From Maribacter sp. 4G9 (GTDB lineage Bacteria > Bacteroidota > Bacteroidia > Flavobacteriales > Flavobacteriaceae), in assembly GCF_002742265.1 (NCBI RefSeq), contig NZ_MDGL01000035.1, positions 62,001 to 126,000 on the forward strand: a DNA stretch of 64,000 nt, given 5' to 3'. The notes below the pieces were generated by a model. That model ran no database searches, had not been told where the DNA came from, and saw nothing but the letters and a program-made list of their open reading frames with translations. This document shows positions 48,824 to 63,196 of the stretch, piece by piece; position 1 is the stretch's first letter; every line of letters starts with the position of its first letter. A program made the position numbers and the translations under genes.

Positions 48824-49200
48824 TTAAAAATCAACCTTCTCCAATGCGTCATCGGTTTCTTTGTGCATAAAATTAGCTTGATAATTAACAGTAGTAGTGA
48901 TAGATGAGTGCCTATATAGTTTTTGAAGCATTTGTATAGGTATTTTATCCCCTGATATATTTCCGAAGCTATGACGTGCAATATGCATACTGAGTTTTTT
49001 TCAATACCAAGGTTTTCTGCAACAATCTCCAATCTGCGGTTTAAGTTTCTTATTATTATTTTAGTGCGAATCGCCATACGTTTTTCGTCCTTGAGACTGG
49101 CCCCGTCATATAGGGGAAAACCAAATCGTTTTTGTTCTTTTTGAATTTGGATTTAAACGATACCTTAACATAGTAAGATAAATCACTAAATGTTTTAACA
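48824..49200 (-). pseudogene. Tyrosine recombinase C-terminal remnant with two frameshifts
   Basis: Read right to left, three frames join into one integrase catalytic domain. KVSFKSKFKKNKNDLVFP comes first; then, after a shift, LYDGASLKDEKRMAI and RNLNRRLEIVAENLGIEK; then, after another shift, KLSMHIARHSFG, a C-terminal YRHSSITTTVNYQ with the likely catalytic tyrosine, and a stop at 48824-48826. The HxxR motif is HIAR. The first ~200 residues are missing: the homology stops at the terminator beside the tRNA-Leu fragment. The gene is dead and probably marks an older insertion. Confidence 0.75.
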
Positions 49201-49249: not shown

Positions 49250-49274
49250 GCTTGCACTGAGCGCAGTCGAAGTG
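49250..49274. repeat. Flavobacterial dispersed repeat-like sequence
   Basis: The string CACTGAGCGCAGTCGAAGTG (49255-49274) contains a short element I remember as frequent in intergenic regions of flavobacterial genomes (CTTCGACTGCGCTCAGTG on the other strand). Only one copy is seen here, so the repeat status rests on memory, not on this window. Confidence 0.45.
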
Positions 49275-49329
49275 TACAGGCGGAGAGACTCGAACTCTCA
49301 CACCTTGCGGCACTAGATCCTAAGTCTAG
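49275..49329 (-). other. Left attachment remnant: 3' half of tRNA-Leu(UAG)
   Basis: Reading the minus strand, 55 nt give the anticodon arm (stem CTAGA/TCTAG, 7-nt loop CTTAGGA, anticodon UAG), the variable arm, a TpsiC arm (GAGAG-TTCGAGT-CTCTC), the 3' acceptor strand CGCCTGT and a discriminator A. The 5' acceptor strand and D-arm that should precede it are absent; AT-rich unrelated sequence follows 49330. It is a tRNA fragment left by integration and marks the left end of the 14-kb island. Confidence 0.82.
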
Positions 49330-49735
49330 GAAATTAAAATCAATTGATATTAAATATTTGATTATCATATACTTATATGTATATAAATTTGATTTAAAAG
49401 TATTAATTATGCGTGAAAATGGCTTTTGTTGTACCTATGTTGTACCTGCAAACAATACTGTATAAGATTAGATTAGTGCATTTCGTTATTATCTCCTAAA
49501 AGCAAAGGGTTTTCCGAAGCTAAGCGTCCTTATTACATACTAGATATTTAGTCTAGTTTAGATAAGCGGACTTAGTTCACGATTTTGGTTTTGGAATGAA
49601 GTGTTCCTTTACATAGGCTAGCATTTATAGGTATAGTGACCTTAAAACAACGATAAACTACCGAGCAAATTTTATACATAGAGAGGCCGATGATGCGTTA
49701 GATAGTGTAATAAACTTTTAGAAAATTAAATGAAT
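49330..49735. other. Non-coding region inside the left island end
   Basis: About 400 bp of AT-rich sequence without a convincing gene on either strand. It contains the 19-bp GTTGTACCTATGTTGTACC repeat at 49428-49446 and an ATCAATTGATAT-like stretch near 49339-49350 that recurs as ATCAGTTGATAT near the right end. Apart from these presumed recombination sites I see nothing in it. Confidence 0.6.
49428..49446. repeat. 19-bp repeat, copy 1 (probable integrase arm site)
   Basis: GTTGTACCTATGTTGTACC, itself two GTTGTACC half-sites 11 bp apart in direct orientation. Identical copies occur at 63117-63135 and 63353-63371, each within about 240 bp of a tRNA-Leu fragment. The spacing and placement fit binding sites of a tyrosine integrase. 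Confidence 0.75.
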
Positions 49736-49781: not shown

Positions 49782-50363
49782 ATGGGATATAAGTATAACA
49801 AAGAAGATATTTTAAATGTAGGCTTTGACGTTTTCAGAAGAAACGGTTACCATAATGTTGGCATTAATCAAATCCTGAAAGAAGCTGGTATTCCAAAAGG
49901 TTCATTTTATAATTTCTTTGAAACCAAAGAAGACTTTGCCCAACAGGTTATCAAACAGTATGGCGAAAGTAACGGTTGCTGGATGAAAGATTACTTCGAT
50001 GATTGTTCCCTATCACCCATTGAGTGTTTAAAATCATTTTATGCAATGATGATTGACCTAAATGAAAAAGATGATTATTCGGGATGTTGCCTTGTAAATA
50101 ATATGAGTGTTGAAGTGGGCCGTCAAAACAATGCTATTGCTTCGGAAGCCAATACTCACTTCGTGGGATGGCTCAATATATTAGCCTCTGTTGTTGCAAA
50201 AGGTCAGGATTTAAAGGAAATCACAAACGAATTCACTCCCCTCCAACTAGCAGAGTATTTGCATGCTGGTTTTTATGGCGTGCTCTCAAGGACAAAAGTG
50301 ACAAGAAATCGAGTTTATATGGATATCTGGTTTGATATGACTTTTAAATTTATAAAAGCATAA
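49782..50363 (+). CDS. TetR/AcrR family transcriptional regulator
   Basis: The 193-residue protein has a TetR-type helix-turn-helix at residues ~8-50 (ILNVGFDVFRRNGYHNVGIN, then GIPKGSFYNFFETKEDFA) and a variable ligand-binding C-terminus. A cysteine pair in YSGCCLVNNMS is a possible redox or electrophile sensor, as in NemR-like regulators, but this is a guess. It has its own Bacteroidota promoter overlapped by a palindrome, suggesting autorepression. It is followed 50 bp later by a lipoprotein gene it may control. It is the first intact gene inside the island. Confidence 0.9.
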   Translation: MGYKYNKEDILNVGFDVFRRNGYHNVGINQILKEAGIPKGSFYNFFETKEDFAQQVIKQYGESNGCWMKDYFDDCSLSPIECLKSFYAMMIDLNEKDDYSGCCLVNNMSVEVGRQNNAIASEANTHFVGWLNILASVVAKGQDLKEITNEFTPLQLAEYLHAGFYGVLSRTKVTRNRVYMDIWFDMTFKFIKA

Positions 50364-50413: not shown

Positions 50414-51283
50414 ATGAAACACTATTTAAAATTTTCAATTATCGTAATAACTATTGGTTTATTACAATCGTGCAAGTCTGTAGACCTACGCTCAGAAGCA
50501 TTAAAAACAAACTCTATTAGCAATGAAGAGCAGAAAGGAAAGAAGTTTCTAAACCAAGCCAAAACGGCAATGGGTTATGATAAACTTTCAGACACCAAAG
50601 TTTACGAAGCTAACGCTATCTTCAACTGGAAAGGTGCTTGGCTAATTATGCCTATGAATACCTTTCCAGGAAACAATAATAACAATCTAAAACTCCGCTT
50701 CGCTACGAACAGTTTCGATGGACGGTTAGAATACTTAGAAGGTAGAAAAAAGAATACCATACAAGGAGTACAATCTTGGAAGGGTTATAAAAAAGAAGTA
50801 GGAAGTGACTACTTGAAACGTCACGAACACGACCGCTATATCTGGGGGTTGGCTACCTATCATTACCTATTGGAAGCACCGATGCATCTACCCGATGCCG
50901 AAATTATACGATACGCAGGTACCAAGGAACTCGATGGCATCGATTACGAAACGGTTTATGTCACTTGGGGAAGCGAAGAGCCCAATAAAAAGTATGACCG
51001 TTTCTTGGTTTATATCAATCCAAACACAAAATTCATTGACTTACTGGAAGTAACGATAAATGACTTCTTTTTGCCAATGCCCAAAGGAATGCAACACGCT
51101 ACAGCGCGATATGAAAGAAAAGAAACCAGTATTGGTGCATTCCTGCCAAGTAATGTCAAGATACAGTTCAAAGGACCAAAAAAATTGGATAATAAGGTGT
51201 ACAGTTTCGCCTTGAACAATTACAAGTTTGATTCTTTTGATAAGGAGGTACTGTACCCACTTGAAGATGTGGAGGCAATTTGA
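50414..51283 (+). CDS. Putative lipoprotein, 289 aa, LolA-like region possible
   Basis: The product starts with a lipoprotein signal (ITIGLLQSCKSV, lipobox LLQSC with Cys20). The mature ~270 residues are beta-rich, with a pattern (a long concave sheet, then DAEIIRYAGTKELDGIDYETVYVTW) reminiscent of LolA/LolB-like or DUF-type lipid-carrier proteins. I cannot name a family. It would be attached to a membrane, most likely the outer one. It lies between the TetR gene and the RND exporter, but has no copy of the ECF-type motif upstream, so it is probably part of the TetR unit. Confidence 0.75.
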   Translation: MKHYLKFSIIVITIGLLQSCKSVDLRSEALKTNSISNEEQKGKKFLNQAKTAMGYDKLSDTKVYEANAIFNWKGAWLIMPMNTFPGNNNNNLKLRFATNSFDGRLEYLEGRKKNTIQGVQSWKGYKKEVGSDYLKRHEHDRYIWGLATYHYLLEAPMHLPDAEIIRYAGTKELDGIDYETVYVTWGSEEPNKKYDRFLVYINPNTKFIDLLEVTINDFFLPMPKGMQHATARYERKETSIGAFLPSNVKIQFKGPKKLDNKVYSFALNNYKFDSFDKEVLYPLEDVEAI

Positions 51284-51329: not shown

Positions 51330-51358
51330 GTCACACATTTTCAATTCCTGAATCTAAA
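51330..51358 (+). promoter_or_regulatory. ECF-sigma promoter motif, copy E (RND operon)
   Basis: TTGTCACAC upstream box (GTCACAC at 51330-51336), exactly 15 bp spacer, then ATC at 51352-51354 followed by TAAA (G-AATCTAAA core). It is the same bipartite motif as at the sigma gene and its neighbours. The transporter ATG is 105 bp downstream. Confidence 0.75.
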
Positions 51359-51363
51359 CAACA

Positions 51364-51456
51364 ATGACCCTATTGAACAAGAAATTGACCCATTTATCCA
51401 AAGGAAAAATAGGGTTAAACATAAAATTTGAGAAACCATTTCCAATACTAATTTGA
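51364..51456 (+). other. Possible 30-codon leader reading frame
   Basis: An ATG just downstream of the ECF-type promoter opens a 30-residue frame (MTLLNKKLTHLSKGK...) that stops 3 bp before the RND transporter ATG. It is basic and amphipathic. It could be a translated leader coupling to the transporter, or a chance frame; only its position supports it. Confidence 0.3.
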
Positions 51457-51459
51457 CAT

Positions 51460-53817
51460 ATGAGTGAACCTAATCAAAATGCAAAAAAGACCTTAGCGAC
51501 ACGCTGGGCAGAATTCGTCATCCGATTCAGATGGCCTGTGCTTATACTATCCATTATGCTTGCAATGGGACTTGCCTCTCAAGGAAAAATGCAATTTGAT
51601 GGAGACTATCACGTATTCTTCAGCGAAACCAATCCTGAACTGGAAGCTTTTGACGCACTACAAGATAAATACACCAAAGACGATAATGTAGTGTTGGTTT
51701 TAGCACCTAAAAACGGCAATGTTTTCACCAAAGAAAACCTTGTTGCCATCGAAGAACTTACAGCGGAAGCTTGGAACACTCCCTACTCTTCGCGAGTAGA
51801 TGCTGTAACAAATTTTCAGCATACCAGTGCCGTAGGGGATGATTTGTATGTGGATGACCTTTCCTACGAATCTACTTCCAAAACGGAAATTGAAATTCTT
51901 GAAATAAAAGAAAAAGCGCTTAAGGAACCGCTTCTTGTTCATCGATTAATCAATGAAGAAGGAAGTGTTACTGCAATCAATATAACGGTGCGGCTTCCTG
52001 GAGAAGATAGTGCGTTGGAAATTCCGGCAGTAACTTCCGCAACTCGAAAAATGGTAGCGGACTTTCAAGAAAAGCACCCCAATTTTGATGTGTATACGAC
52101 AGGTTTAGTTCCGCTAAACACCGCGTTTTTTGAGTATTCTGAAAAAGGATTTGCTTTGGTCGGATTGATGGTGTTAGTCGTATTATTACTCACCTTTTTG
52201 CTTACACGAAACATTTTTGCAATGCTTTCCACAATGCTTGTTTTTATGTTTTCAGCAATGGCGGCCTTCGGCTTTATAGGATTGATGGGGATAAAACTTA
52301 CGGCACCGTCATCTGTATTTCCTACGATGATTTTAACGCTGGCAGTTGCAGATAGTATTCATATCCTCATTACCTATTTACAAAAAGCGCGTCACGAAGG
52401 TTATGATAAACGAGGTGCTCTAGTAGAAAGTATTCGTCTTAATTTTATGCCTGTATTTATTACGAGCCTAACTACGGTCATTGGTTTCCTCACAATGAAC
52501 TTTGGTGAAGTACCTCCCTTTTGGGATTTAGGAAATATCGTGGCCTTTGGTATGACAATGGCATTCTTTTTCTCTACCACATTCCTTCCTGCATTAATGG
52601 CCATTTTACCCCTGTGGAAAAGGAAAAAGGCAAATACCGAAAAAACTGTTTTACCAAATAATTGGTATACCCGCTTTGGTCATTGGGTAACAAGACAACC
52701 TCTACGTCTATCGGTTATATCATTAGCAATTATTGGCGGACTTACCTATTTGGCAACGCTAAATGTTTTCAATGACGAGTTTGTAGAATACTTTGATACC
52801 TCTGTTAAGTTTAGGCAAGACAGTGATTTTATCAATGAAAACCTAACAGGATTTTACAATGTGGAATTCTCGGTAGGCAGCGGGGAAAGTGGTGGCATCA
52901 ATAACCCTCAATATTTACAGAAGTTAAACGAATTTGAAGATTGGCTCAATGACCAACCGGAAGTGGTACACACCAACGCTTTTAGCGAAGTGGCAAGACG
53001 GGTCAATCGGTCAATGCACGGTGATGATCAATCCTACTATCAGGTTCCTTCGAGTCGAGATGAAGCTGCTCAATACCTCTTGCTCTACGAGTTGTCTTTA
53101 CCCTTCGGTCTAGATTTGAACAATCAAATAAATGTAGACAAATCTGAAACTCGGGTAACGGCTACACTTGAAAACAGTTCCAGTGCAGAAATGATAGCAT
53201 TTACTGAACGAGCAGAAAACTGGTTGAAAGAGAATGCACCAGAACCGATGCATTCCATAGGCGTGAGTCCAACACTAATGTTCTCTAAGTTAGGTTTCCG
53301 TCAGGCAGATAGTATGTTCAATGGAAATATAGTGGCACTCGTACTGATTTCATTGATACTGATGATAGCCCTCAGAAATTTCAAATTAGGCCTATTAAGT
53401 ATAATTCCGAATGTAGCTCCTGTAATCGTTGGTTTCGGGCTTTGGTGGTTGTACAAAGGAACTATCAATTCGGGTATGGTTTTCGTTTTCGGTATGACCT
53501 TAGGAATTATAGTAGATGATACCGTACACTTTATGAGCAAGTTCTTAAGAGCCAAACGTGAACTGGGATACAACGCAAAAGAAGCTGTGATTTACGCTTT
53601 TCAAACCGTTGGAAGAGCATTGGTGACCACCACAATAGTGTTGGTGGCTGGTTTTGGAATTCTTTCTACTTCACCCTTTGCGCTAAACAGCTATATGGCA
53701 CGTATCACACTCATTATTATCATCGCTGCACTTGTCATAGATTTTATCCTATTGCCCTCATTGCTGATACTAGTGAGCAAGAAAGAAGATACCGTTCAGA
53801 TTAAAGCAAAAAATTAA
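51460..53817 (+). CDS. MMPL/RND superfamily exporter
   Basis: The 785-residue inner-membrane protein has the twelve-helix RND/MMPL layout: helix 1 at about residues 25-43, a periplasmic loop, helices 2-6 (about 225-385, with LAVADSIHILITYL), a second loop, and helices 8-12 (about 625-775, with GMTLGIIVDDTVHFM). The repeated acidic helix motifs are typical of proton-driven exporters of lipids or hydrophobic compounds. It is followed closely by a LolA-like periplasmic carrier and a beta-barrel, a set I recall from other MMPL operons. The ECF-type motif upstream suggests control by the island's sigma factor. Confidence 0.9.
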   Translation: MSEPNQNAKKTLATRWAEFVIRFRWPVLILSIMLAMGLASQGKMQFDGDYHVFFSETNPELEAFDALQDKYTKDDNVVLVLAPKNGNVFTKENLVAIEELTAEAWNTPYSSRVDAVTNFQHTSAVGDDLYVDDLSYESTSKTEIEILEIKEKALKEPLLVHRLINEEGSVTAINITVRLPGEDSALEIPAVTSATRKMVADFQEKHPNFDVYTTGLVPLNTAFFEYSEKGFALVGLMVLVVLLLTFLLTRNIFAMLSTMLVFMFSAMAAFGFIGLMGIKLTAPSSVFPTMILTLAVADSIHILITYLQKARHEGYDKRGALVESIRLNFMPVFITSLTTVIGFLTMNFGEVPPFWDLGNIVAFGMTMAFFFSTTFLPALMAILPLWKRKKANTEKTVLPNNWYTRFGHWVTRQPLRLSVISLAIIGGLTYLATLNVFNDEFVEYFDTSVKFRQDSDFINENLTGFYNVEFSVGSGESGGINNPQYLQKLNEFEDWLNDQPEVVHTNAFSEVARRVNRSMHGDDQSYYQVPSSRDEAAQYLLLYELSLPFGLDLNNQINVDKSETRVTATLENSSSAEMIAFTERAENWLKENAPEPMHSIGVSPTLMFSKLGFRQADSMFNGNIVALVLISLILMIALRNFKLGLLSIIPNVAPVIVGFGLWWLYKGTINSGMVFVFGMTLGIIVDDTVHFMSKFLRAKRELGYNAKEAVIYAFQTVGRALVTTTIVLVAGFGILSTSPFALNSYMARITLIIIIAALVIDFILLPSLLILVSKKEDTVQIKAKN

Positions 53818-53844
53818 TACATCTAATAAAAAATTATATACAGA

Positions 53845-54618
53845 ATGAAAAAATCGATTATAACAACAATTGCATTGGTAGCTTTTTCAATGGGGTTTGC
53901 TCAAACCGCCGAAGAAAGAGGTTTACAAATTGCAAAAGCTGCTGAAGAAGCCGACTTAGGTTTTGGAAGTAGTACCGTAGAATTGCAAATGACCTTAAAA
54001 AACAAAAATGGTCAGACCAGTGAACGATTTCTAGAAAACAAAACCTTGGAGCTTACTGAAGATGGAGACAAATCCCTTATCGTTTTCAATAGTCCAAAAG
54101 ATGTCAAAGGTACTGCAACCTTAACTTTTACACATAAGGTAGGCAGTGATGACCAGTGGCTTTATTTGCCATCTATTGCCAGAGTAAAACGGATTTCATC
54201 AAATAACAAATCCGGACCATTTGTAGGTAGTGAATTTGCCTATGAAGACCTTTCTTCCCAAGAAGTAGAAAAGTACAGCTATAAATTTTTGAAAGAAGAA
54301 GGAAGCAACCTTATCGTAGAACAAGACCCAGTAGACCCAATATCGGGTTACACAAGAAGGGTGGTTACTTACAACAAGGACAAAGGCTATCGCATTGAGA
54401 AAATAGAATTTTACGACCGTAAAAATTCGCTTTTAAAGACCTTGACCTATAGCGATTACAAATTGTACAAAGATAAATTCTGGAGAGCCGGAACTTTCAA
54501 TATGGTCAATCACCAGAGCAATAAAGAGACCATTTTAAAATTCAGCAATTACAATTTTGATGCTGGATTAACAGATGATGATTTTACGCAAGTAGCGCTT
54601 AAAAGAGCTGGAAATTAG
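53845..54618 (+). CDS. Outer membrane lipoprotein-sorting (LolA-like) protein
   Basis: The 257-residue protein has a cleavable signal peptide ending in GFAQTAEE. It matches the LolA-like outer-membrane lipoprotein-sorting family found beside MMPL transporters: LIVFNSPKDVKGTATLTFTH, then DDQWLYLPSIARVKRISS, SEFAYEDLSSQEVEKY and TYSDYKLYKDKFW. It is periplasmic, and its half-barrel fold could carry a hydrophobic ligand or lipid between the RND exporter (27 bp upstream) and the outer-membrane protein downstream. Confidence 0.88.
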   Translation: MKKSIITTIALVAFSMGFAQTAEERGLQIAKAAEEADLGFGSSTVELQMTLKNKNGQTSERFLENKTLELTEDGDKSLIVFNSPKDVKGTATLTFTHKVGSDDQWLYLPSIARVKRISSNNKSGPFVGSEFAYEDLSSQEVEKYSYKFLKEEGSNLIVEQDPVDPISGYTRRVVTYNKDKGYRIEKIEFYDRKNSLLKTLTYSDYKLYKDKFWRAGTFNMVNHQSNKETILKFSNYNFDAGLTDDDFTQVALKRAGN

Positions 54619-54642
54619 TTTTTTGATTGATGGTTGGTGTTT

Positions 54643-54686
54643 AAGGCTGGCGTTTACTGTTGAATAATGAAGATGATAACGTCAGC
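54643..54686. promoter_or_regulatory. Imperfect stem-loop after the LolA-like gene
   Basis: A nine-base stem GCTGGCGTT/AACGTCAGC (one G-U pair) with a ~23-nt loop lies 25 bp after the LolA-like stop and is followed by only three Ts. It may attenuate or terminate transcription before the outer-membrane gene, or protect the upstream mRNA end. Confidence 0.4.
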
Positions 54687-54770
54687 TTTAAATATCAAAA
54701 ACAGTAGTTCTTATGCAAAAGAAATTTTGTTTCCCCCTACTAGAACTGCACTTTAAGTCCAAAGACAACG

Positions 54771-54798
54771 CGCTACAATGCAATATGGTTTTGTAGCG
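54771..54798. promoter_or_regulatory. Perfect inverted repeat before the outer-membrane gene
   Basis: CGCTACAA (54771-54778) and TTGTAGCG (54791-54798) form an 8-bp perfect inverted repeat with a 12-bp spacer, ending 22 bp before the ATG of the beta-barrel gene. It is either a protein-binding site or an mRNA hairpin in the leader. Confidence 0.45.
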
Positions 54799-54820
54799 TG
54801 TGGCTTTGGCACAATTTCGT

Positions 54821-56023
54821 ATGAAGAGAATAATATTATTCATAATAATAAGTTTTGGTTACGCTTTCGCAAAAGCGCAATCAGAAACACCCAAAAAAGT
54901 AACCCACGACTTTGAATTGGAGTTAGAAGGTGAATACCGATATTTTTATGAAGATGCTCAATTTTCAGGACAGGAAAATCACTATCCGTCTTTAGCTATT
55001 AGACCTGAATACTCAGCTGAATGGAACAAAGGCTATGAGAGCATCAATTTTAAAGGATTCCTAAGAATAGATAGAGATAATGTGCGAACTCATTGGGATA
55101 TTAGGGAACTCTATTATCAAAAAGCAAAGAAGAATTGGGAGTTGAGTATTGGGCTTAAAAAGGTGTATTGGGGTGTTGCAGAAAGCAACCATTTGGTAGA
55201 TATTATCAATCAGACAGATGCTGTGGAAAGCTTTGATGGAGAAGATAAATTGGGGCAACCAATGGCGCAGTTCAGTTGGGTGACCAATGACTTTGGAACG
55301 TTTAATTTTTTCTATCTCCCCTATCACAGAAAACGCACGTTTGCCGGAGAAGAAGGACGACTACGTTTTGGGGTAGTCATAGATAAAGATGATTTGGGCT
55401 ATGAAAGTGGCGCGGAAGAATGGCGACAAGACTTTGCCTTTAGATGGAAGTATTTTGTGGGAGCATTCGATATTGGGCTATCCCACTTTTATGGAAATGG
55501 CCGAGAGCCACTTTTTGTATTTACACCTACAGGCGATATTAATGCCTTTTATCCCGTTATCAATCAAACCGGACTTGATGTTCAAATAACACACAACGCT
55601 TTCCTTTGGAAATTTGAATCCATCTACCGTCACGCCGATGCTCAGGATTTTCTTGCTTTGGTTGCAGGTTTGGAATATACGTTCAGTAATATTGATGGTA
55701 ATGGTTTGGACATAGGACTGTTAGGAGAGTATCTCTATGATGAGCGCGATGAACTAGCATTGACAACACTTCAAAATGACATGTTTTTCGGAAGTAGAAT
55801 TGCTTTTAACGATGTTCAGGACACCTCCATTCTTTTAGGAGGAATAAAAGACCTAGAACAGTCAAGCACCATTTTTAGTATTGAGGCATCGAGACGTTTT
55901 GGGAGCAGCTGGACTGCAGAAATTGAAGCCCGAATATTTAACGATATAGATACATCTGAATTGATTCTATCCAACTTTCAGGATGATAGTTTTTTACGAT
56001 TGAGCATATCCCGATTTTTCTGA
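54821..56023 (+). CDS. Outer-membrane beta-barrel protein (DUF1302-like)
   Basis: The 400-residue product has a signal peptide (RIILFIIISFGYAFAKAQ). I therefore use the ATG at 54821 rather than the TTG at 54800. The rest is made of alternating amphipathic strands with many aromatic residues and ends in SISRFF, the terminal phenylalanine typical of outer-membrane barrels. The sequence style (RELYYQKAKKNWELSIGLKKVYWGVAE) resembles the DUF1302/alginate-export-like barrels that accompany MMPL and LolA-like genes. It may give the exporter system an outer-membrane exit or receptor. Confidence 0.78.
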   Translation: MKRIILFIIISFGYAFAKAQSETPKKVTHDFELELEGEYRYFYEDAQFSGQENHYPSLAIRPEYSAEWNKGYESINFKGFLRIDRDNVRTHWDIRELYYQKAKKNWELSIGLKKVYWGVAESNHLVDIINQTDAVESFDGEDKLGQPMAQFSWVTNDFGTFNFFYLPYHRKRTFAGEEGRLRFGVVIDKDDLGYESGAEEWRQDFAFRWKYFVGAFDIGLSHFYGNGREPLFVFTPTGDINAFYPVINQTGLDVQITHNAFLWKFESIYRHADAQDFLALVAGLEYTFSNIDGNGLDIGLLGEYLYDERDELALTTLQNDMFFGSRIAFNDVQDTSILLGGIKDLEQSSTIFSIEASRRFGSSWTAEIEARIFNDIDTSELILSNFQDDSFLRLSISRFF

Positions 56024-56027
56024 ACCA

Positions 56028-56411
56028 ATGCCTACGACCATTCACATAAACAGTACTATCGAAAGACCAAAAGGGGTTGTGAAAGAGGCATTATTGGAAG
56101 GTCTTACTGTTTTTAGTGGTATGGGCAACATTTCGGAGGTTAAATTTTCTACCACTGATAATATATATCACGCAAAACTGAACGATAAGCTCTTATGTAA
56201 GGGACTAAAAAATGTCCATTTTACCATATCACTTCACCGTGATAAGAGTACGGAAGAACGTACTCATTTCAATTCCGAAATTAGATACAGGTATCTTGCT
56301 AAATATTCGCTCACCAGAATAATACATAAAGTGATATTGCAACGGTACCTTACATTTCAGGCCAAGAGTAGATTTCATCAATTTAAATACAGAATCGAAA
56401 AATGGCTTTAG
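56028..56411 (+). CDS. Hypothetical protein, 127 aa
   Basis: I do not recognise this 127-residue protein. It has no signal peptide, begins PTTIHINSTIERPKGVVKEAL and has a basic C-terminal half (RIIHKVILQRYLTFQAKSRFHQFKYR). The N-terminal pattern, beta strand then helix, is compatible with a shortened START/SRPBCC-like fold, but this is weak. It starts 4 bp after the beta-barrel gene and overlaps the DUF2652 gene by 10 bp, so it is part of the exporter operon. Confidence 0.65.
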   Translation: MPTTIHINSTIERPKGVVKEALLEGLTVFSGMGNISEVKFSTTDNIYHAKLNDKLLCKGLKNVHFTISLHRDKSTEERTHFNSEIRYRYLAKYSLTRIIHKVILQRYLTFQAKSRFHQFKYRIEKWL

Positions 56412-57514
56412 TAAAATCACTTTTGTTTATACCCGATATTTCAGGCTTCACACACTTTGTACAGACCACAGAGGTACAACACTGTGAACACGTTATTGCC
56501 GAATTATTGGAAGTTCTCATTTCCTCCAATACACAAAACTTAAAATTGGCCGAAGTGGAAGGTGATGCTTTATTCTTTTATAAAGAAAATCATATTCCGT
56601 CCCAAGAGAAGTTGCTAGCCCAAGTCGAAACAATGTACACTGCGTTTTACAGTCATCTTAAAATGATGGAAACCAATCGAATTTGTCCGTGTCGTGCTTG
56701 TGCCAGTGCTCCAGATTTGGAACTCAAAATTGTACTGCATTGCGGAGAGCTTCAGTTTATGACTGTACAGGGCAATCGCAAGCCGTTTGGTGAATCGGTC
56801 ATTCAAGCGCATAGACTCCTCAAAAATTCTATTGAGAGTGATAATTATGTTTTGGTAAGTAAGGAGCTGGCTGGCGAAATAGGATTGCAATCAAGTTATC
56901 AAAGTATGCTATTCCAATTTCGCGAAAGCGAGAATAGTTACGACGGTAAACCCATCTCCTATCTTTTTGCAGAAATAGAGGTAGAAAAATTAAAGTTATT
57001 AGGTTTTGAACCACCTGAAATTGTAATTACTGATAGGCCACCTGATTTTGTGTTGGAACGTGAATTAAACATTGACCCCTACGAACTATTTGAATTGCTC
57101 ACTAATTATAGACATCGCCATTTGTGGATAGATGGTGTTGAAGAATTTAAGTTTAATGAATACGAGGTAACCCGTGCAGGCACTGAACACGTATGCGTTA
57201 TCAATGGTAAGCACTTCAACTTCACCACTGTCATCAAGGATGTACCCATTGACCAATTGATATATGGAGAGTTAACCACCGACCCATCACCAGTAGATAA
57301 ATTATACCTGTTTTACATTTTAGAACCTAAAGGGGAAGATAAAACACTACTCAAAGTAGAACAATACTGGACGACTCGTACTTTATTACAAAAACTCTTA
57401 ATGGCTACAATCGCTAAAAATCAAATCTCAAAAGGGTTAATCGCAGCTATCGATAAGCTTGAAAGACTGGTTAATCAAAATAAGACTAACAGCAAATCCC
57501 TTCTAAACTATTAA
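56402..57514 (+). CDS. DUF2652 protein with C-terminal SRPBCC domain
   Basis: The 370-residue protein has an N-terminal DUF2652 domain related to class III nucleotide cyclases (LLFIPDISGFTHFVQ, then AEVEGDALFFYKE, and KPFGESVIQAHRLLKNS). The cluster CPCRACASAP could bind metal. The last ~150 residues have an SRPBCC-like layout (FVLERELNIDPYELFELLTN to the terminal helix IAAIDKLERL). It is cytoplasmic. Known DUF2652 proteins lack demonstrated cyclase activity as far as I recall. It is the last gene of the exporter operon and one of several SRPBCC-containing genes in the island. Confidence 0.8.
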   Translation: MALVKSLLFIPDISGFTHFVQTTEVQHCEHVIAELLEVLISSNTQNLKLAEVEGDALFFYKENHIPSQEKLLAQVETMYTAFYSHLKMMETNRICPCRACASAPDLELKIVLHCGELQFMTVQGNRKPFGESVIQAHRLLKNSIESDNYVLVSKELAGEIGLQSSYQSMLFQFRESENSYDGKPISYLFAEIEVEKLKLLGFEPPEIVITDRPPDFVLERELNIDPYELFELLTNYRHRHLWIDGVEEFKFNEYEVTRAGTEHVCVINGKHFNFTTVIKDVPIDQLIYGELTTDPSPVDKLYLFYILEPKGEDKTLLKVEQYWTTRTLLQKLLMATIAKNQISKGLIAAIDKLERLVNQNKTNSKSLLNY

Positions 57515-57904
57515 GTTCATATCCCTTCAAAGGTCTCTCTTTACAGCTCACCACGCTATTACTTCTTTCTGGTCTTTTTATCCAATGGATTGACCTATTA
57601 TTCTAACTCCTTTCAAGCCTCCTATAAAATTGAAAGATGCTCCATAGACGAAGTATGGAATGCTCTTGCCTTAGACTACGGTGGTATTGGTAAATAGACA
57701 TCTGGCGTCAATCATGTGGTCGAATTCAGCGACGAGGGAGCTGATTCCAAACGATTGGATAAGGCAAAAAAACTATTAAGGAATTCCCAAGCATCTATTT
57801 CAGAAATCGCATATGACTGTGGATTCAATGACCCAGGTATTTTTCATAAACTGTTCAAAAAAGCTACGAAGTACCACCTAGCCTATATAGAACTGATTAG
57901 CTGA
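57515..57904 (+). pseudogene. Broken SRPBCC protein joined to an AraC-type HTH fragment
   Basis: One frame, the same as that of the gene before it, reads a signal-like FFLVFLSNGLTYYS, then the SRPBCC start IERCSIDEVWNALALDYGGIGK, an in-frame TAG at 57695-57697, then TSGVNHVVEFSDEG. It continues into the helix-turn-helix of an AraC regulator (LLRNSQASISEIAYDCGFND, FHKLFKKATK) and stops at 57904. No good start codon is seen. It looks like two unrelated gene pieces fused by deletion. The 62-residue frame from 57716 alone is therefore not a functional regulator. Confidence 0.6.
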
Positions 57905-57915
57905 TAAGGTAAAAA

Positions 57916-58557
57916 TTATAAATATTTTTCCTCAATCACCTCAAAATGGTGTTGCTGATGCCCAGAGATGCACAATACCAGTGTCCTTGGGGATGCTGGA
58001 AACGATTCATGTATGCCCATTATCTTGAGTTCTTCCTCTGAAAAATTGGCAAAGGTCTTAATCGTTTGTTTTCTTACATTTTTGAATCGTTCTAGTAGTT
58101 CGGTTTTGGTAATATCTTTTTCTACTCTAGCAGTGGTTATTTGATTGTAATATCCTATTGGGTCTTCCACCTTCTTACCAGCAATTTTTAACCCACTCTC
58201 TGTCATTATACGTTCATAGGAAATGATATGCTGCAATACTTGGGCAACAGTCCACTTTCCGAATCCATATTTGTAGGAAATCTTTTCTTCTGGAATAGCT
58301 TCTATAAAATCAATCATAACCTCTTCAGAATTCTGGAGTATCTCAGAGACAGTCACGCCATCTACGCTCTGTTCTAGATAGAACATCATCTGTGGGTCTC
58401 TTTCTTGTTGAGTCAACTGTTTAATTAGTGAGTTAGGCATTCGTTCTATTGTTTTTATTTGTCCATTTTCTTTTTTGTTCTGGCACGAAGCAATTCCGGT
58501 TACACATAGCAGTATCGTGTATATTAAGTATTTTATTTTCATAACGATTTGTGTCAT
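57916..58557 (-). CDS. DinB-family lipoprotein
   Basis: The 213-residue protein has a lipoprotein signal (TILLCVTGIASCQNK, lipobox GIASC) and then a DinB four-helix bundle. The metal-type histidines are in WTVAQVLQHIISYERI and ISGHQQHHFEVIEEKY. DinB-fold proteins include bacillithiol- or glutathione-dependent transferases, but an exported lipoprotein form has no known activity. The start overlaps the esterase stop by ATGA (58554-58557), so both are read from the ECF-type promoter upstream of the esterase. Confidence 0.82.
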   Translation of the reverse strand: MTQIVMKIKYLIYTILLCVTGIASCQNKKENGQIKTIERMPNSLIKQLTQQERDPQMMFYLEQSVDGVTVSEILQNSEEVMIDFIEAIPEEKISYKYGFGKWTVAQVLQHIISYERIMTESGLKIAGKKVEDPIGYYNQITTARVEKDITKTELLERFKNVRKQTIKTFANFSEEELKIMGIHESFPASPRTLVLCISGHQQHHFEVIEEKYL

Positions 58558-59297
58558 TTTAGAAGCTTATTCAACATCTGTTCCATCTGTCCATTCCAGT
58601 TATTAAAATCATGAGCACCTTCCGTTTCTAGATTTTCAACTGTATATCCTTTTGATTTATACAATTGTGTAAGTGGCCCAACATAATTTTCGGCATCGTT
58701 CTTACCTGTGGAAATGAATATGTTTAAATTTTCATTTTCAGAGAATGCTATTGATGACAGCGCTTCTTTACAGGGATAGGTAATTGGGGATAATAATGCA
58801 TAGTTCTGAAACAATTCGGTTTTACCAGAAAAATAAACCGCATTGAGACCTCCAAAGGAAATACCAATCAAACTGCGTTCTTTGGGTTTTAGCTTTCGCG
58901 AAAGCTGGCTTTCAATAGTTGGTGCCAACTCCTTTTCAAAAAACTGCATATATTTTTCGTTACAGAAAAAATAAGTATTGCGTTTATCCTGGCTTGTCTT
59001 GGCATCAATTGTACTTACAAACACATAATTCGCTTTAGGTATTTGACCTTTAATGGTAAGTTCTTTTATGATATCCAATGTGCCATTTTCAATCATTTTT
59101 TGACCATCTGTAATGTAAACAAACGGTTTAATTTCAATTTCAGGGGCGCTATCATATGTCGTTATGGAAATATTTTCTGCAAGGATTTTGCTAGCAATGA
59201 TTACTTTTTTTTCATTATCTGGAACTTGAGCTGCGCATAGATTGCACATTATTAATGAAAAGAAGGACAGGGTAATGATGTGAAAATTAGTTTTCAA
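58554..59297 (-). CDS. Secreted alpha/beta hydrolase (esterase D-like)
   Basis: This 247-residue protein from the TTG at 59297 has a signal peptide (FHIITLSFFSLIMCNLCAAQ), the nucleophile elbow GISFGGLNAVYFSG, and a C-terminal catalytic His in ETEGAHDFNNW. It resembles periplasmic esterases of the ferri-siderophore hydrolase/esterase D group. The longer frame from the ATG at 59324 would begin inside the -10 box of the ECF-type promoter, so I prefer the TTG start, which also leaves a cleaner signal peptide. It is coupled to the DinB lipoprotein gene. Confidence 0.78.
   Translation of the reverse strand: MKTNFHIITLSFFSLIMCNLCAAQVPDNEKKVIIASKILAENISITTYDSAPEIEIKPFVYITDGQKMIENGTLDIIKELTIKGQIPKANYVFVSTIDAKTSQDKRNTYFFCNEKYMQFFEKELAPTIESQLSRKLKPKERSLIGISFGGLNAVYFSGKTELFQNYALLSPITYPCKEALSSIAFSENENLNIFISTGKNDAENYVGPLTQLYKSKGYTVENLETEGAHDFNNWNGQMEQMLNKLLK
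58891..58906. repeat. Iterated palindrome AGCTTTCGCGAAAGCT
   Basis: Perfect 16-bp palindrome inside the esterase gene. A close relative CGCTTTCGCAAAAGCG is at 54862-54877 (one mismatch) and a half-extended TTTCGCGAAAGCG is at 56918-56930. I saw none in the first 49 kb. Confidence 0.65.
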
Positions 59298-59313
59298 TGA
59301 ATAGGCTTTTACT

Positions 59314-59342
59314 ATTAGATGCATAAAACTGTGCGGTGTGAC
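59314..59342 (-). promoter_or_regulatory. ECF-sigma promoter motif, copy C (esterase-DinB)
   Basis: On the minus strand GTCACAC (59342-59336), 15 bp, then ATC (59320-59318) followed by TAAT, with the core GCATCTAAT. The ATG at 59324 lies within the spacer/-10 boundary, so translation must start downstream. Confidence 0.8.
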
Positions 59343-59361
59343 AATCTCAAATAAAAAGCCA

Positions 59362-60240
59362 TCAATTCAACCGCATCGCCCTGTTAATCTTCTTATCGCT
59401 TAAAATATCTTCTATAAAGGTCTTCTTGTCAAAATTCTGTTTAAAGGGCATTTTGCGATACAATTCATCAAATTTGTGTTCTACGGTTTCCAACATAAAA
59501 TCGGCATCCGGTTTTATAACTTCTTTAAAACTGGCATGTTCCTTGCGGTTAAACAATAAATTCTTTGCATCTATAAACTTATTATCTAATGCAAACTGAA
59601 CTTTTTTATGGCATCGACAAGGATTACTTTTATCTACCAGGCCACATTTATTATTCATATAGTTAAACATATCTTTACGTGCCCGAGAAAGACGTTTTCT
59701 ATAATTATCCTTAGAAATATTTAAAATTTCGGAACCTATATTTTGGTCTGCATCAAACATTTCTCCTATGATGTACACCAAGCGTTGGTCTCTATTTAAA
59801 CACAACAGCATTCCACTCATGCAAGAATAATTCATCTCTTTTATAAGTGCTTCATTAGCCTTCTTTTCGGCTTCAGTCATATCTGTATCTGGCGTATTTT
59901 CTAAGCCTATAGCGTGCGCTTCAAAACTGGTAAACACCTCTTCGTTAGGTTTGCGTTTTGACATTAAAAAATGGTTGACCACAATACGATAGCACCAGGT
60001 CGAAAACTTACTTTTCCCTTTGAACATAGACAGATTGGTGACAATCTTAATAAGTGCTTCTTGGGTCAAGTCTTTTGCGTCTGCAGGATGGCGCACCATT
60101 TTCCAAGCCACATTGTAAATAAAAGGCTGATGTTTTAGAAGTAGTTCTTCCAAGGCTTTTTTATCACCATTCTTAGCCCCTGTAACCAACTCCATATCGG
60201 TCTTGTCCCCAGTATATTCTTTTAAAAAAGGATTGTCCAT
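59362..60240 (-). CDS. ECF RNA polymerase sigma factor with C-terminal extension
   Basis: The 292-residue protein has sigma region 2 (about residues 30-95; FIYNVAWKMVRHPADAKDLT, FSTWCYRIVVNHFLM) and region 4 (about 135-190; GSEILNISKDNYRKRLSRAR). An extension of ~100 residues with a CxCH motif (NPCRCHKK) replaces the usual short tail. I start at the ATG 60240 (MDNPFLKEYTG), because a TTG at 60258 would lie at or before the expected transcript start. It carries a copy of its own promoter motif, so it is probably autoregulated. No anti-sigma gene is adjacent, which suggests the extension itself controls activity. Confidence 0.88.
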   Translation of the reverse strand: MDNPFLKEYTGDKTDMELVTGAKNGDKKALEELLLKHQPFIYNVAWKMVRHPADAKDLTQEALIKIVTNLSMFKGKSKFSTWCYRIVVNHFLMSKRKPNEEVFTSFEAHAIGLENTPDTDMTEAEKKANEALIKEMNYSCMSGMLLCLNRDQRLVYIIGEMFDADQNIGSEILNISKDNYRKRLSRARKDMFNYMNNKCGLVDKSNPCRCHKKVQFALDNKFIDAKNLLFNRKEHASFKEVIKPDADFMLETVEHKFDELYRKMPFKQNFDKKTFIEDILSDKKINRAMRLN

Positions 60241-60257
60241 AATAGTTTTATTTATCA

Positions 60258-60286
60258 ATTAGATGCAAAAATGAACTAGGTGTGAC
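60258..60286 (-). promoter_or_regulatory. ECF-sigma promoter motif, copy D (sigma factor itself)
   Basis: Minus strand GTCACAC (60286-60280), 15 bp, ATC (60264-60262) and TAAT, with the core GCATCTAAT identical to copy C. The sigma ATG at 60240 is 17 bp beyond the motif. The preceding base differs (GGTCACAC instead of TGTCACAC). Confidence 0.8.
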
Positions 60287-60376
60287 CACTTCATTTGAAG
60301 ATTTAAATTAATTACATAATAATATAACATTTTAAAATTCTGCTTTTGCCAAAGCAATACAATGAAAACAAAGGTT

Positions 60377-60405
60377 GTCACACAATTACTTTTTCTGAAT
60401 CAAAG
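60377..60405 (+). promoter_or_regulatory. ECF-sigma promoter motif, copy A (first SRPBCC gene)
   Basis: TTGTCACAC with GTCACAC at 60377-60383, 15 bp, ATC at 60399-60401 and AAAG. The SRPBCC ATG is 32 bp beyond ATC. It is divergent from the sigma promoter with about 90 bp between them. Confidence 0.8.
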
Positions 60406-60433
60406 GGGGTATAACTTTTAAAATATAGTAAAA

Positions 60434-60940
60434 ATGAAAAAATTGAAATCGTTATCCTTAATAGCCTTGTTTATACTTGGTATAGGAAACACAGAAGTAA
60501 CCGCTCAAAATGCCAATGCAAAGTTGGTACACACTCAAATTGTTGAGAAAAGTGCAGACGATGTTTGGAAAATCGTAAGGAATCTTGATTTTGCAAAATA
60601 CACAAAGGCAGTAAGCAATGTGAAAGTGACAGGTAAATATGGTGCAGGTGCAACACGAGTGTGTACTGCCCCAGATGGAAAAAGTCAGTTTAAAGAAAGT
60701 ATCCTTGCCTATGATGATACTAACAGAACATACACTTACGCGGTTGTAGAAGGTGTTCCTGTTAAAGGTCTTGTAAACAACTTTAAAGTGATAGATCTGG
60801 GATACAATAAGTCAATGATTGTATGGTGGTCCAATTATGAGTCATTTATACAAAATCCACAGATGAACGAGGAGCAGTTTACGGCTTTTATGAAATCTTC
60901 ATTAACAGAGATTGTAACAAATATGGCTAATGATGCCTAA
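60434..60940 (+). CDS. Secreted SRPBCC (START-like) protein 1
   Basis: The 168-residue product has a signal peptide (SLIALFILGIGNTEVTAQN) and then an SRPBCC fold: KLVHTQIVEKSADDVWKIVRN at the first strand/helix, a glycine-rich KVTGKYGAGATRVCTAPDG turn and a long C-terminal helix (FTAFMKSSLTEIVTNMA). Such folds make a deep pocket for lipids, polyketides or other hydrophobic molecules. It is divergent from the sigma gene and has its own ECF-type promoter and a good terminator, so it is a one-gene unit. Confidence 0.88.
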   Translation: MKKLKSLSLIALFILGIGNTEVTAQNANAKLVHTQIVEKSADDVWKIVRNLDFAKYTKAVSNVKVTGKYGAGATRVCTAPDGKSQFKESILAYDDTNRTYTYAVVEGVPVKGLVNNFKVIDLGYNKSMIVWWSNYESFIQNPQMNEEQFTAFMKSSLTEIVTNMANDA

Positions 60941-60962
60941 TTAATATATTTCCCCTAAAATT

Positions 60963-60993
60963 AAAATGCTCGCTATAAAGGTGGGCATTTTTT
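60963..60993 (+). terminator. Terminator after SRPBCC gene 1
   Basis: Stem AAAATGCTC/GGGCATTTT (9 pairs with one G-U), loop about 11 nt, followed by a run of Ts. It separates the first SRPBCC gene from ECF-type promoter B, 20 bp further on. Confidence 0.8.
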
Positions 60994-61012
60994 ATAGTTT
61001 CTTTTAAGACTT

Positions 61013-61041
61013 GTCACACTGTAGTGTTTTCAGCATCAAAG
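61013..61041 (+). promoter_or_regulatory. ECF-sigma promoter motif, copy B (SRPBCC 2-3 operon)
   Basis: TTGTCACAC (GTCACAC 61013-61019), 15 bp, ATC at 61035-61037 and AAAG, with the core GCATCAAAG. The next ATG is at 61095. Confidence 0.8.
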
Positions 61042-61094: not shown

Positions 61095-61598
61095 ATGAAA
61101 ATTAACAAAACACTTAAAGTGAACGCCACTGCCAGCAAAGTTTGGGAAGTGCTATACACAAATTATGGAGATGCTTGCGATTGGGCAAGTACGGTAAACG
61201 AATCCAAAATAAGAAACGTCGATAATTCCCCATACGAAGGAAGAACCTGCTCGACTTCGTTTGGCGATGTAAGCGAGATTATAGACCACGTGGACGAAGA
61301 AAAGATGGAACTCCAATACCATCTAGATGACACTCCATTTATTATGAAAGCTGCAACCGCAAAATGGAGAGTAAAATCTACTAGTGTCAATACCTCAGAG
61401 GTCACGATGAATCTAGATGCTACTCTTGCAACGATTCCCGGAATCTTAATGGGATGGATGATAAAACCAAAAATGCGAAAAGACATTCATCAGACCATAG
61501 ATGACTTAAAATATTACATAGAGACTGGCAAACAATCCGAAGCAAAGATTAAGTCGGACACTAAATACATCAAAAAGAAGGGCAACAAAGCCGCATAA
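61095..61598 (+). CDS. Cytoplasmic SRPBCC protein 2
   Basis: The 167-residue protein lacks a signal peptide and starts directly with the SRPBCC strand/helix KINKTLKVNATASKVWEVLYTNYGD. The curved sheet follows, and a C-terminal helix HQTIDDLKYYIETGK then a lysine-rich tail (KSDTKYIKKKGNKAA). It is the cytoplasmic counterpart of SRPBCC proteins 1 and 3, which are exported. It is first in an operon with SRPBCC 3 (20 bp later) and the NTF2-like gene. Ligand unknown. Confidence 0.88.
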   Translation: MKINKTLKVNATASKVWEVLYTNYGDACDWASTVNESKIRNVDNSPYEGRTCSTSFGDVSEIIDHVDEEKMELQYHLDDTPFIMKAATAKWRVKSTSVNTSEVTMNLDATLATIPGILMGWMIKPKMRKDIHQTIDDLKYYIETGKQSEAKIKSDTKYIKKKGNKAA

Positions 61599-61618: not shown

Positions 61619-62239
61619 ATGAAATTTAAAAACAAAACAATAGTAGCTATGGCCATTGCAATTTTGGCCTCCACATTTTCTTTCGCGCAGTCGATGAAAA
61701 AGAATTTTAAAACAGTTCACGTAGAACTTAAAATCAATGCACCAGCAGAACGAGTTTGGGAAGCAATGGTTCTGGACTATGGGGAGATATCAAATTTCTC
61801 ACCTTACATCTATACATCTGAATACACCAATGGGTCCTTGAAGGGAGAACTTGGTGCTGAACGTAAGTGTAATTTCAATGAGAAAGAAACACAATGGTCT
61901 CACGAGCGTATTGTCGAGATAGATAATGAAAATATGATAATGCGTAATGTGGTTTTTGATGGTAAAAAATTACCCTTAAACTTTGACAATTCACAAGCTT
62001 TTTATAGAGTAAAAGATAACGGAGATGGCACATCGACGGCATCTTATGAATTTCAGTTTCGTACCAAACCTGCTTTTATGGGTTTTATCGCAAAAGGCTC
62101 TTTCAAAAAGCAACTTAAGGGAACATTAGTAGGTCTCAAACACTATGTTGAAACCGGAGAACGAGTTACTGGTGGAACTGGAAAATACAAAGAAATAAAA
62201 GACAACTATCCAGAGCCAACATTGATAAAAACAGAATAG
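61619..62239 (+). CDS. Secreted SRPBCC protein 3
   Basis: The 206-residue product has a signal peptide (TIVAMAIAILASTFSFAQ) and an SRPBCC fold: TVHVELKINAPAERVWEAMV, GELGAERKCNFNEKETQW, and a C-terminal helix LKGTLVGLKHYVETGERVTG. It is close in layout to SRPBCC 2 but exported, so ligand handling may happen on both sides of the inner membrane. It lies 20 bp after SRPBCC 2 and 16 bp before the NTF2-like gene. Confidence 0.88.
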   Translation: MKFKNKTIVAMAIAILASTFSFAQSMKKNFKTVHVELKINAPAERVWEAMVLDYGEISNFSPYIYTSEYTNGSLKGELGAERKCNFNEKETQWSHERIVEIDNENMIMRNVVFDGKKLPLNFDNSQAFYRVKDNGDGTSTASYEFQFRTKPAFMGFIAKGSFKKQLKGTLVGLKHYVETGERVTGGTGKYKEIKDNYPEPTLIKTE

Positions 62240-62255
62240 AAAAACAAAAATAGTT

Positions 62256-62609
62256 ATGACAAATCAAGAAGTAGCAAACAAATTAGTAAGCCTTTTAAGA
62301 GAAGGAAAATTCAATGAGGTTTATGACGAATTATTCCATCCCGATGCGCATCACATCGAACCACAATCTGAGTATTTTGCAGATTTAAAGGGTGTTGAAG
62401 CAATTAAGGCTAAAGATGCTGCGATGAGCGAGCATTTAGAAGGAGTAGAATCTATGGAAGTGGGTGATGCCATTATAGCCAGTAAACACATTGCCATTCC
62501 CTACAAGCTCACGGCAAAACTAAAAGATGGAAACCAAATGTCACTTGATGAACTTATTGTTTATGAATTGAGCGATGGTAAAATTCTAAGCGAACAGTTT
62601 TTTTACTAA
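62256..62609 (+). CDS. NTF2/SnoaL-like protein
   Basis: The 117-residue protein shows the NTF2-like pattern: N-terminal helix TNQEVANKLVSLLREGKFNEVY, DELFHPDAHHIEPQSEYF, and a helix GVEAIKAKDAAMSEHLEGV before the curved sheet ending KILSEQFFY. Such domains bind small molecules or form dimers. In ECF41 sigma factors a SnoaL-like domain is fused to the sigma factor; here it is a separate gene in a unit with the same promoter motif. A regulatory role is therefore conceivable but unproven. It ends the operon 27 bp before a terminator. Confidence 0.85.
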   Translation: MTNQEVANKLVSLLREGKFNEVYDELFHPDAHHIEPQSEYFADLKGVEAIKAKDAAMSEHLEGVESMEVGDAIIASKHIAIPYKLTAKLKDGNQMSLDELIVYELSDGKILSEQFFY

Positions 62610-63169: not shown

Positions 63170-63196
63170 ATGACTGTAAATTTACAGTTGAAAAAG

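Follow-up and report, generated by a model that had tools for sequence, protein, structure and literature searches.

A five-site motif in a 14-kb module

We analysed a 64,000-nucleotide stretch of the genome of Maribacter sp. 4G9 (contig NZ_MDGL01000035.1, positions 62,001 to 126,000; hereafter the window). Near its right end, two 61-nt direct repeats enclose about 14 kb, here called the module, which contains the gene of a 292-aa extracytoplasmic function (ECF) sigma factor, genes for three SRPBCC-type proteins (SRP1, SRP2 and SRP3), an esterase-DinB gene pair and the operon of a resistance-nodulation-division (RND) transporter (Table 1). The initial annotation of this DNA had read five copies of a bipartite motif as the mobile regulon of the sigma factor. 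All five copies are present, at 51330 (+), 59342 (-), 60286 (-), 60377 (+) and 61013 (+), exactly as that annotation had placed them.

The motif takes the exact form GTCACAC-N15-ATC(A/T)AA, with G(A/C)ATC(A/T)AA as the core after the spacer. As had been proposed, a scan of the window finds exactly 15 bp between GTCACAC and ATC, with (A/T)AA following and the core intact, at 5/5 sites. Each site lies in sense orientation just ahead of a gene start, the distance from the C of ATC to the start codon being 21 bp for the esterase, 22 bp for the sigma gene, 33 bp for SRP1, 58 bp for SRP2 and 106 bp for the RND gene, where the esterase and sigma starts (59297 and 60240) are those that we chose to fit the promoter. 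The mechanical open reading frame (ORF) starts of these two genes were rejected: the esterase ATG at 59324 is part of the -10 box itself, and the TTG of the sigma gene at 60258 begins 4 bp past the C of ATC. Both boxes are identical among the five window sites while the spacers differ. The -35 region reads TGTCACA at four of the five sites and GGTCACA before the sigma gene.

The window contains six copies of GTCACAC, five of them with ATC at 15 bp; the sixth, at 34745 (-), is without ATC at this distance, and no GTCACAC-ATC match is found in the window at any other spacing from 8 to 23. Across 300 dinucleotide shuffles of the window, GTCACAC-N15-ATC averaged 0.05 occurrences and the form with (A/T)AA 0.003, with a maximum of 1 in either case. 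A pattern with up to two mismatches gives 32 matches in the window versus 35.6 expected, which is chance level; the signal therefore rests in the exact form, and two-mismatch sites were rejected as extra regulon members. We also carried out the genome-wide search that the initial annotation had suggested, using the reversed motif pattern, counted in the same genomes, as a backward control. The whole 4.6-Mb genome (196 contigs) has five copies of GTCACAC-N15-ATCNAA, all of them the window sites, and the backward control has none. When one mismatch is allowed, 7 further sites appear, scattered over the genome, versus 6 backward-control matches.

Conservation of the motif at orthologous genes

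Related loci were collected by one scan of 84,980 species with six short peptides, which is not exhaustive. The scan returned 35 loci (L numbers denote loci and G numbers genomes): 14 with a close relative of the sigma factor (L001-L014; 67-87% identity over the best segment) and 21 with other ECF genes. In the first group GTCACAC-Nk-ATC has 34 matches at a spacing of 15 and at most two at any other spacing from 8 to 23; the 21 other-ECF loci have 0 matches at spacing 15. Among orthologues with 65-86% sigma identity the spacers vary while the boxes stay conserved.

For phylogenetic footprinting, another check named in the initial annotation, we used the pattern GTCACA-N16-ATC(A/C/T)A, which leaves the seventh base of the -35 box free. 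The sigma gene is complete with upstream DNA in 13 of the L001-L014 loci (L013 is incomplete), and all 13 genes are preceded by the motif, 12 with GTCACAC and that of L005 with GTCACAT. The motif also precedes 14/16 SRP1 homologues (12 with GTCACAC) and 12/14 SRP2 homologues (five with GTCACAC, the remainder with GTCACAG, A or T), and it stands before 1 of 122 unrelated ORFs of at least 120 aa at the same loci. It is absent before homologues of SRP3 (0/10), SnoaL (0/10), DinB at 45% identity or more (0/2) and the LolA-like, 407-aa and DUF2652 genes (0/5 each), counts that are compatible with genes internal to operons. A further orthologue of 65% identity, L073 (genome G377), likewise has the motif ahead of its sigma gene.

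For the RND gene, the motif is found at two of five homologues in the L001-L014 loci, one of them truncated at the locus edge. When RND operons were compared in L002, L006, L009, L011, L113, L115 and the source genome, the gap motif was present in four of the six outside the source. Three of eight other esterase genes have a motif of their own (three of nine entries, one gene being split in two ORFs). Of the five without one, those of L002 and L004 come immediately after the sigma gene and those of L005, L008 and L011 after an SRPBCC gene that has the motif, so that all eight could be read from such a promoter. A DinB-like gene directly follows the sigma gene in seven orthologue loci (Pfam was run on one, L007). 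The proposal that the sigma factor drives itself, both SRPBCC units, the RND operon and the esterase-DinB pair is thus supported, for each of these units, by the motif at equivalent genes. Taken together, the motif is exact, confined in the genome to these five sites and conserved at equivalent genes, and is therefore very probably the sigma factor's own promoter.

Two of these loci hold further features. At L011:13208-14086 a second sigma gene (62%) lies behind SnoaL, and second copies of SRP2 and SnoaL come after it; upstream of this second SRP2 stands a GTAACAC-N15-ATC variant. Beside the module in L001, a 2258-aa ORF (L001:12332-15373) contains repeats of about 480 nt.

Genome-wide distribution in relatives

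The 13 orthologue genomes (L001-L012 and L014) contain 40 exact matches versus 5 backward-control matches. By manual count, 34 of the 40 belong to the sigma locus, at distances of up to about 11 kb, and six are elsewhere. One of these six, in G436 on contig C2, lies between a 289-aa-type gene and the RND gene of a tetR-OMlp-RND-LolA operon, on a contig other than that of the G436 sigma gene. The match 11 kb from the sigma gene in G437 also lies between 289-aa-type and RND genes. The remaining five non-locus matches are the same in number as the five backward-control matches, and the only one of them inspected, on G437 contig C16, has no module gene within 5.5 kb.

In 397 genomes of the family we counted 51 exact matches in 40 genomes. 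Fifteen of them fall in the four genomes that have a sigma factor of at least 65% identity, which are the only ones among the 397 with two or more exact matches, and the 36 others have one each. What stands out in the family is the clustering, with five, four and four matches in single genomes at module genes. G377 has two matches, chance-level by number, one of which precedes its sigma gene. G086, with a 60% sigma fragment at a contig end, has no exact match; 13 further family genomes have only a 40-48% relative, and four of these (G082, G102, G125, G217) have one match each and nine none. Among 36 genomes of the genus, some of them incomplete, the source has five matches and three others one each, with 8 control matches in all; a close sigma factor is found in the source alone, and one other genome has a 42% relative.

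The sigma factor and its family

By its sequence the protein is an ECF-type sigma-70 factor. It passes the ECF superfamily model TIGR02937 with 66.3 bits (cut-off 42.9), and none of the equivalog or subfamily models among the matches listed (best 25 of 80) reached its cut-off. Profile comparison aligns approximately residues 10-194 with ECF sigma chains such as SigW, AlgU and RpoE. The best Foldseek match is SigW, and the best matches cover the sigma core; the AlphaFold2 model has a mean pLDDT of 68.4 and a pTM of 0.47. A C-terminal extension of about 95 aa starts at KCGLVDKSNPCRC. An alignment of 34 homologues, with identities down to 37%, shows five invariant cysteines: C140 and C147 where sigma4 begins, and C199, C208 and C210 in the sequence KCGLxxxxNPCRC immediately behind sigma4. 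The rest of the extension is not cysteine-rich. Exceptions in the phylum set are L126, which reads NRCRC, and L123 and L124, which have no KCGLxxxxNPCRC match.

The family is sparse, with a member at E <=1e-40 in 11 of 395 genomes of the phylum, source included. Some relatives show altered motifs before their own sigma genes: GTAACAC-N15-ATCTA in L074, L075 and L089 (42-48% identity), and GTCACAC-N16-GTCTA (GTCACAC-N16-GTCTAA) in a sister clade formed by L083-L086, L092 and L093. The genome-wide search of sister codes covered N16-GTC only. This pattern has one match per genome in 6/6 clade genomes, directly before the sigma gene and with no second copy; as the six were picked for having the pattern at the sigma gene, the search adds only the lack of a second copy. 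The source genome has no N16-GTC match, and G026 and G350, the genomes of L009 and L007, carry both the N15-ATC and the N16-GTC types.

An own-promoter motif is found in 9/19 further homologue loci (L074-L093 are 20 loci, of which L087 ends at a contig end). Against a general rule stand the other 10 of the 19, which have no such motif near their own start, the congener relative L112, also without one, and 11 of the 13 phylum loci L117-L129, where only L123 and L124 have a motif (L117 and L127 repeat the genes of L078 and L091). Such motif-less homologues may be read from the gene in front. We found no publication on this flavobacterial sigma family among the matches listed in the open-access literature.

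Gene content of the module

The remaining genes and features are listed in Table 1. SRP1, SRP2 and SRP3 belong to one protein family (Polyketide_cyc2). The esterase, read from TTG 59297, has an N terminus that by eye resembles a signal peptide. The DinB protein scores far under the cut-off of the YfiT bacillithiol transferase model. For the 407-aa protein, an outer-membrane location is our guess. Pfam scans of the module proteins recognised no anti-sigma family, the 407-aa and 127-aa proteins being without any family. Between the DUF2652 and DinB genes (window 57542-57905), broken stretches resemble, by eye, an SRPBCC gene and the C terminus of an AraC-type regulator.

Table 1. Features of the module and its borders (window positions unless a locus is given).
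Feature	Position	Strand	Remarks
Integrase remnant, second, just outside left repeat	48833..49054	-	74 aa aligned, 55%
Left attachment site (att)-like repeat, tRNA-Leu(TAG) 3' end	49274..49334	.	56 nt identical to tRNA-Leu(TAG) of L009 and G075
Integrase C-terminal remnant, inside module by left repeat	49620..49718	+	33 aa, 76% to integrase of the integrative and conjugative element (ICE)-like element
TetR-family regulator, left end of module	49782..50363	+	PF00440 9.5e-11
289-aa gene	50414..51283	+	upstream of motif 1, so outside its control; weak DUF6503 match below cut-off
Motif 1, ahead of RND operon	51330..51357	+	GTCACAC-N15-ATCTAA; counterpart in L006, L009, L113, L115
RND/MMPL transporter	51460..53817	+	PF03176 9.6e-36
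LolA-like outer-membrane lipoprotein-sorting protein	53845..54618	+	PF17131 2.3e-54
407-aa protein	54800..56023	+	conserved beside LolA-like gene; no Pfam match
127-aa protein	56028..56411	+	no Pfam family
DUF2652 protein	56402..57514	+	PF10851 1.9e-44
DinB superfamily protein	57916..58557	-	PF12867 5.5e-14; overlaps esterase stop
Putative esterase	58554..59297	-	PF00756 4.4e-16; TTG start 59297
Motif 2, ahead of esterase-DinB pair	59315..59342 (start 59342)	-	counterpart at esterase gene in L001, L003, L013
ECF-type sigma factor, 292 aa	59362..60240	-	Sigma70_r2 1.1e-14; ATG 60240
Motif 3, ahead of sigma gene	60259..60286 (start 60286)	-	13/13 orthologues with upstream DNA
Motif 4, ahead of SRP1, divergent from sigma gene	60377..60404	+	14/16 SRP1 homologues
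SRP1, SRPBCC-type protein	60434..60940	+	PF10604 6.4e-11
Motif 5, ahead of SRP2-SRP3-SnoaL unit	61013..61040	+	12/14 SRP2 homologues
SRP2, SRPBCC-type protein	61095..61598	+	PF10604 4e-9
SRP3, SRPBCC-type protein	61619..62239	+	PF10604 2.6e-12
SnoaL_5 protein, free-standing	62256..62609	+	PF20409 1.4e-22
Right att-like repeat, between module and ICE-like element	63196..63256	.	85% to left copy
Tyrosine integrase of ICE-like element	63461..64000, continues past window (L094:461-1675)	+	PF00589, PF13102, PF17293

Evidence bearing on possible mobility

An intact tRNA-Leu(TAG) gene lies 35 kb to the right of the module (contig 160253-160335), and the space from the right repeat to this gene is filled by a 35-kb ICE-like element with a tyrosine integrase, a TraG/VirB4-type ATPase, a coupling protein and a DUF5712 protein. 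Over 56 nt the left repeat equals the tRNA-Leu 3' end of the congener G075 and of L009, and it is about 81% identical to the host's intact tRNA-Leu, whose 3' half differs, as expected if incoming elements replaced that half. The tRNA sequences of G075 and L009 are identical while the congener G286 differs at a few bases, so the tRNA match alone is no proof of a native end. The module has a G+C content of 0.366, and the two 20-kb stretches with the ICE-like element have 0.338 and 0.360, as against 0.432 in the window up to 45 kb and 0.425 beyond.

The orthologous module of L009 also adjoins tRNA-Leu(TAG), with no second copy of the tRNA-Leu end at that locus. In L006 a distantly related integrase (27%) stands next to the tetR gene; among the other loci of L001-L014 we found no integrase of this kind and no tRNA-Leu, L003 having a tRNA-Arg. 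The M20-peptidase side of tRNA-Leu is common to the source, G075 and G286 and the 3' side differs in all three, so that comparison with these two genomes gives no clean empty tRNA-Leu site. Pfam scans of 14 module ORFs (two without family) recognised no conjugation gene. The module looks like cargo of the cis-mobilizable element (CIME) type in accretion with the ICE-like element, with the 61-nt repeats as putative att sites. The term mobile in the initial annotation finds backing in the tRNA-Leu repeats, the adjacent ICE-like element and the absence of a close sigma factor from the 35 congeners searched.

The ICE-like element has cargo of its own. A mercury-resistance group at L094:9013-14779 comprises an HMA-domain flavin reductase (MerA-like), MerB, MerT and an ArsR-type regulator; a second ArsR-type gene is found at L094:1833, and L095:3691-6795 encodes a 1034-aa protein with N6-methylase and Eco57I-type domains. 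DUF2652 proteins occur both in the RND operon of the module (56402-57514) and in the mercury group (L094:11468-12097).

Comparison with known systems

ECF41 sigma factors use the promoter TGTCACA-n16-CGTC, whose -35 consensus is called ECF41-specific, and act, as far as detected, on neighbouring genes only, including in some loci the sigma gene itself (PMC3426412). The module resembles them in the C-terminal extension of its sigma factor, in the -35 TGTCACA and in its probable targets, which are local and include the sigma gene; the sister subtype GTCACAC-N16-GTC moreover has the ECF41 spacing (PMC3426412). The suggestion that the motif is ECF41-like thus held for the -35 box and failed for the -10 box, which is ATC rather than CGTC and lies one base closer to the -35 (PMC3426412). 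Unlike ECF41, the sigma factor of the module has no fused SnoaL domain, SnoaL_5 being a separate gene at 62256, and its probable targets are SRPBCC, esterase-DinB and RND genes in a block between att-like sites. The scanned genes of the module include no carboxymuconolactone decarboxylase, oxidoreductase or epimerase; the GMC oxidoreductase encoded at 45040 is not part of the module and lacks the motif. Membership in ECF41 was rejected on account of the missing SnoaL fusion, the other neighbours and the other -10.

CorE-like factors (ECF44/ECF238) have a CXC in the linker between sigma2 and sigma4 and a cysteine-rich C-terminal domain (PMC8999054). They share with the module sigma a C-terminal extension with conserved cysteines and the lack of a known anti-sigma factor, but the 34 homologues of our family have no linker CXC and their cysteines are placed otherwise (PMC8999054). 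An ECF-type motif mapped in Flavobacterium psychrophilum has a CGT box at -10, as opposed to ATC in the module (PMC9723704). As in CIMEs, the module has att-like flanks, no conjugation or working recombination genes, a tandem arrangement with an ICE-like element and a position at the end distant from the target tRNA gene (PMC7563491). A Streptococcus salivarius survey found the most decayed elements to be always the most distant, and the module, the decayed element here, lies farthest, which is the same pattern (PMC7563491). It differs in its setting, a flavobacterial genome at tRNA-Leu(TAG), and in its cargo, a sigma factor together with all of its probable targets (PMC7563491).

Proposed circuit and alternative explanations

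We consider it highly likely that the five sites are cognate promoters of the sigma factor encoded at 60240-59362 and that they drive five units carried as CIME-like cargo. The -35 element would be GTCACAC, usually TTGTCACAC, and the -10 element G(A/C)ATC(A/T)AA. Once active, the sigma factor would transcribe its own gene in a positive feedback, and with it the divergent SRP1, the SRP2-SRP3-SnoaL unit, the esterase-DinB pair and the RND-LolA-like-DUF2652 operon, perhaps as a set that handles a hydrophobic or reactive compound at the envelope. Because no anti-sigma gene was recognised in the module, sigma activity is probably set by the protein's own extension with its invariant cysteines, which would replace an anti-sigma factor and might sense a metal, a thiol-reactive compound or redox, or a ligand. 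Having lost its own integrase, the module could presumably move only together with the neighbouring ICE-like element.

Several observations weigh against parts of this account. In the family as a whole the 51 exact matches compare with about 70 backward-control matches (manual count), and seven genomes have two control matches, so a lone or paired copy is meaningless without its position. The seventh base of the -35 box is variable, GTCACAC standing at 12 of 13 sigma genes but at only five of the 12 site-bearing SRP2 genes. Sites are missing at the RND genes of L002 and L011, the second sigma copy of L011 (62% identity), the second SRP1 copies of L008 and L014, the SRP2 of L003 and the second SRP2 of L011; the esterase has its own site in only three of eight cases, that of L003 sitting within the called ORF start. 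As for the protein, region 2 is above the Pfam cut-off while region 4 (r4_2) is below, and the extension is modelled poorly (pLDDT 36-60 from residue 221). The 407-aa and 127-aa ORFs could hide a partner of the sigma factor, and a cysteine switch in the extension is a guess.

A bipartite motif of seven and three bases might also be read by some other DNA-binding protein, for example the TetR regulator at 49782, whose gene stands at the module's left end, or an unlinked activator, with the sigma gene merely one of the targets. We regard this as decidedly unlikely. The motif is non-palindromic and is found before genes in one orientation and at one spacing, it has the two-box shape of an ECF promoter with a -35 like that of ECF41 (PMC3426412), and some related sigma factors show correspondingly altered motifs at their own genes. 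A tetR homologue (at least 45%) is found in 3/14 loci plus L113 and L115, whereas the motif is found in 13/13 with sigma upstream DNA. That the three SRP proteins form one family is compatible with descent of the five copies from one duplicated promoter segment, which would have no bearing on sigma recognition. Such a history is barely plausible, given that spacers differ among the five sites while the boxes match, that the boxes are kept over orthologues of 65-86% sigma identity with differing spacers, and that the RND site is kept where the RND operon sits on another contig.

The regulon might finally be ordinary chromosomal DNA that is not mobile now, the tRNA-Leu repeats being chance or old relics. 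In favour of this, identity of the left repeat amounts to no more than 85% with the right one and about 81% with the intact tRNA of the host, and no integrase in the module is complete. Moreover, the sequence left of 49274 does not match the DNA after the tRNA in G075, and L009 yielded no second tRNA-Leu copy. Nevertheless, this reading seems unlikely to us, since the left repeat has 56 nt of a congener tRNA-Leu 3' end, as expected for a displaced attB end, and an element with integrase, TraG/VirB4-type ATPase and coupling protein spans the gap to the intact tRNA-Leu. The G+C content of the module (0.366) and the ICE stretches (0.34-0.36) contrasts with 0.43 in the window up to 45 kb, the close sigma factor occurs in only 1/36 genus genomes, and the L009 module likewise adjoins tRNA-Leu(TAG).

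Implications for the family

In computational terms, the locus is a clear example of cargo between tRNA-derived repeats that unites a sigma factor with every target promoter recognisable for it, and the promoter sequence occurs nowhere else in the host in exact form. The locus also provides a testable promoter code for a flavobacterial ECF family and candidate orthogonal promoter parts for Bacteroidota, and it suggests how regulons cross species without disturbing host transcription. Of three putative subtype codes (GTCACAC-N15-ATC, GTAACAC-N15-ATC and GTCACAC-N16-GTC), the two searched genome-wide hardly occur elsewhere in the host genomes. It is possible, if somewhat doubtful, that the sparse Bacteroidota sigma family defined by KCGLxxxxNPCRC and two further cysteines consists of private, insulated, self-amplifying circuits with subtype promoter codes and a thiol- or metal-gated extension. 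If so, a horizontally moved block would bring along its own insulated, self-amplifying switch.

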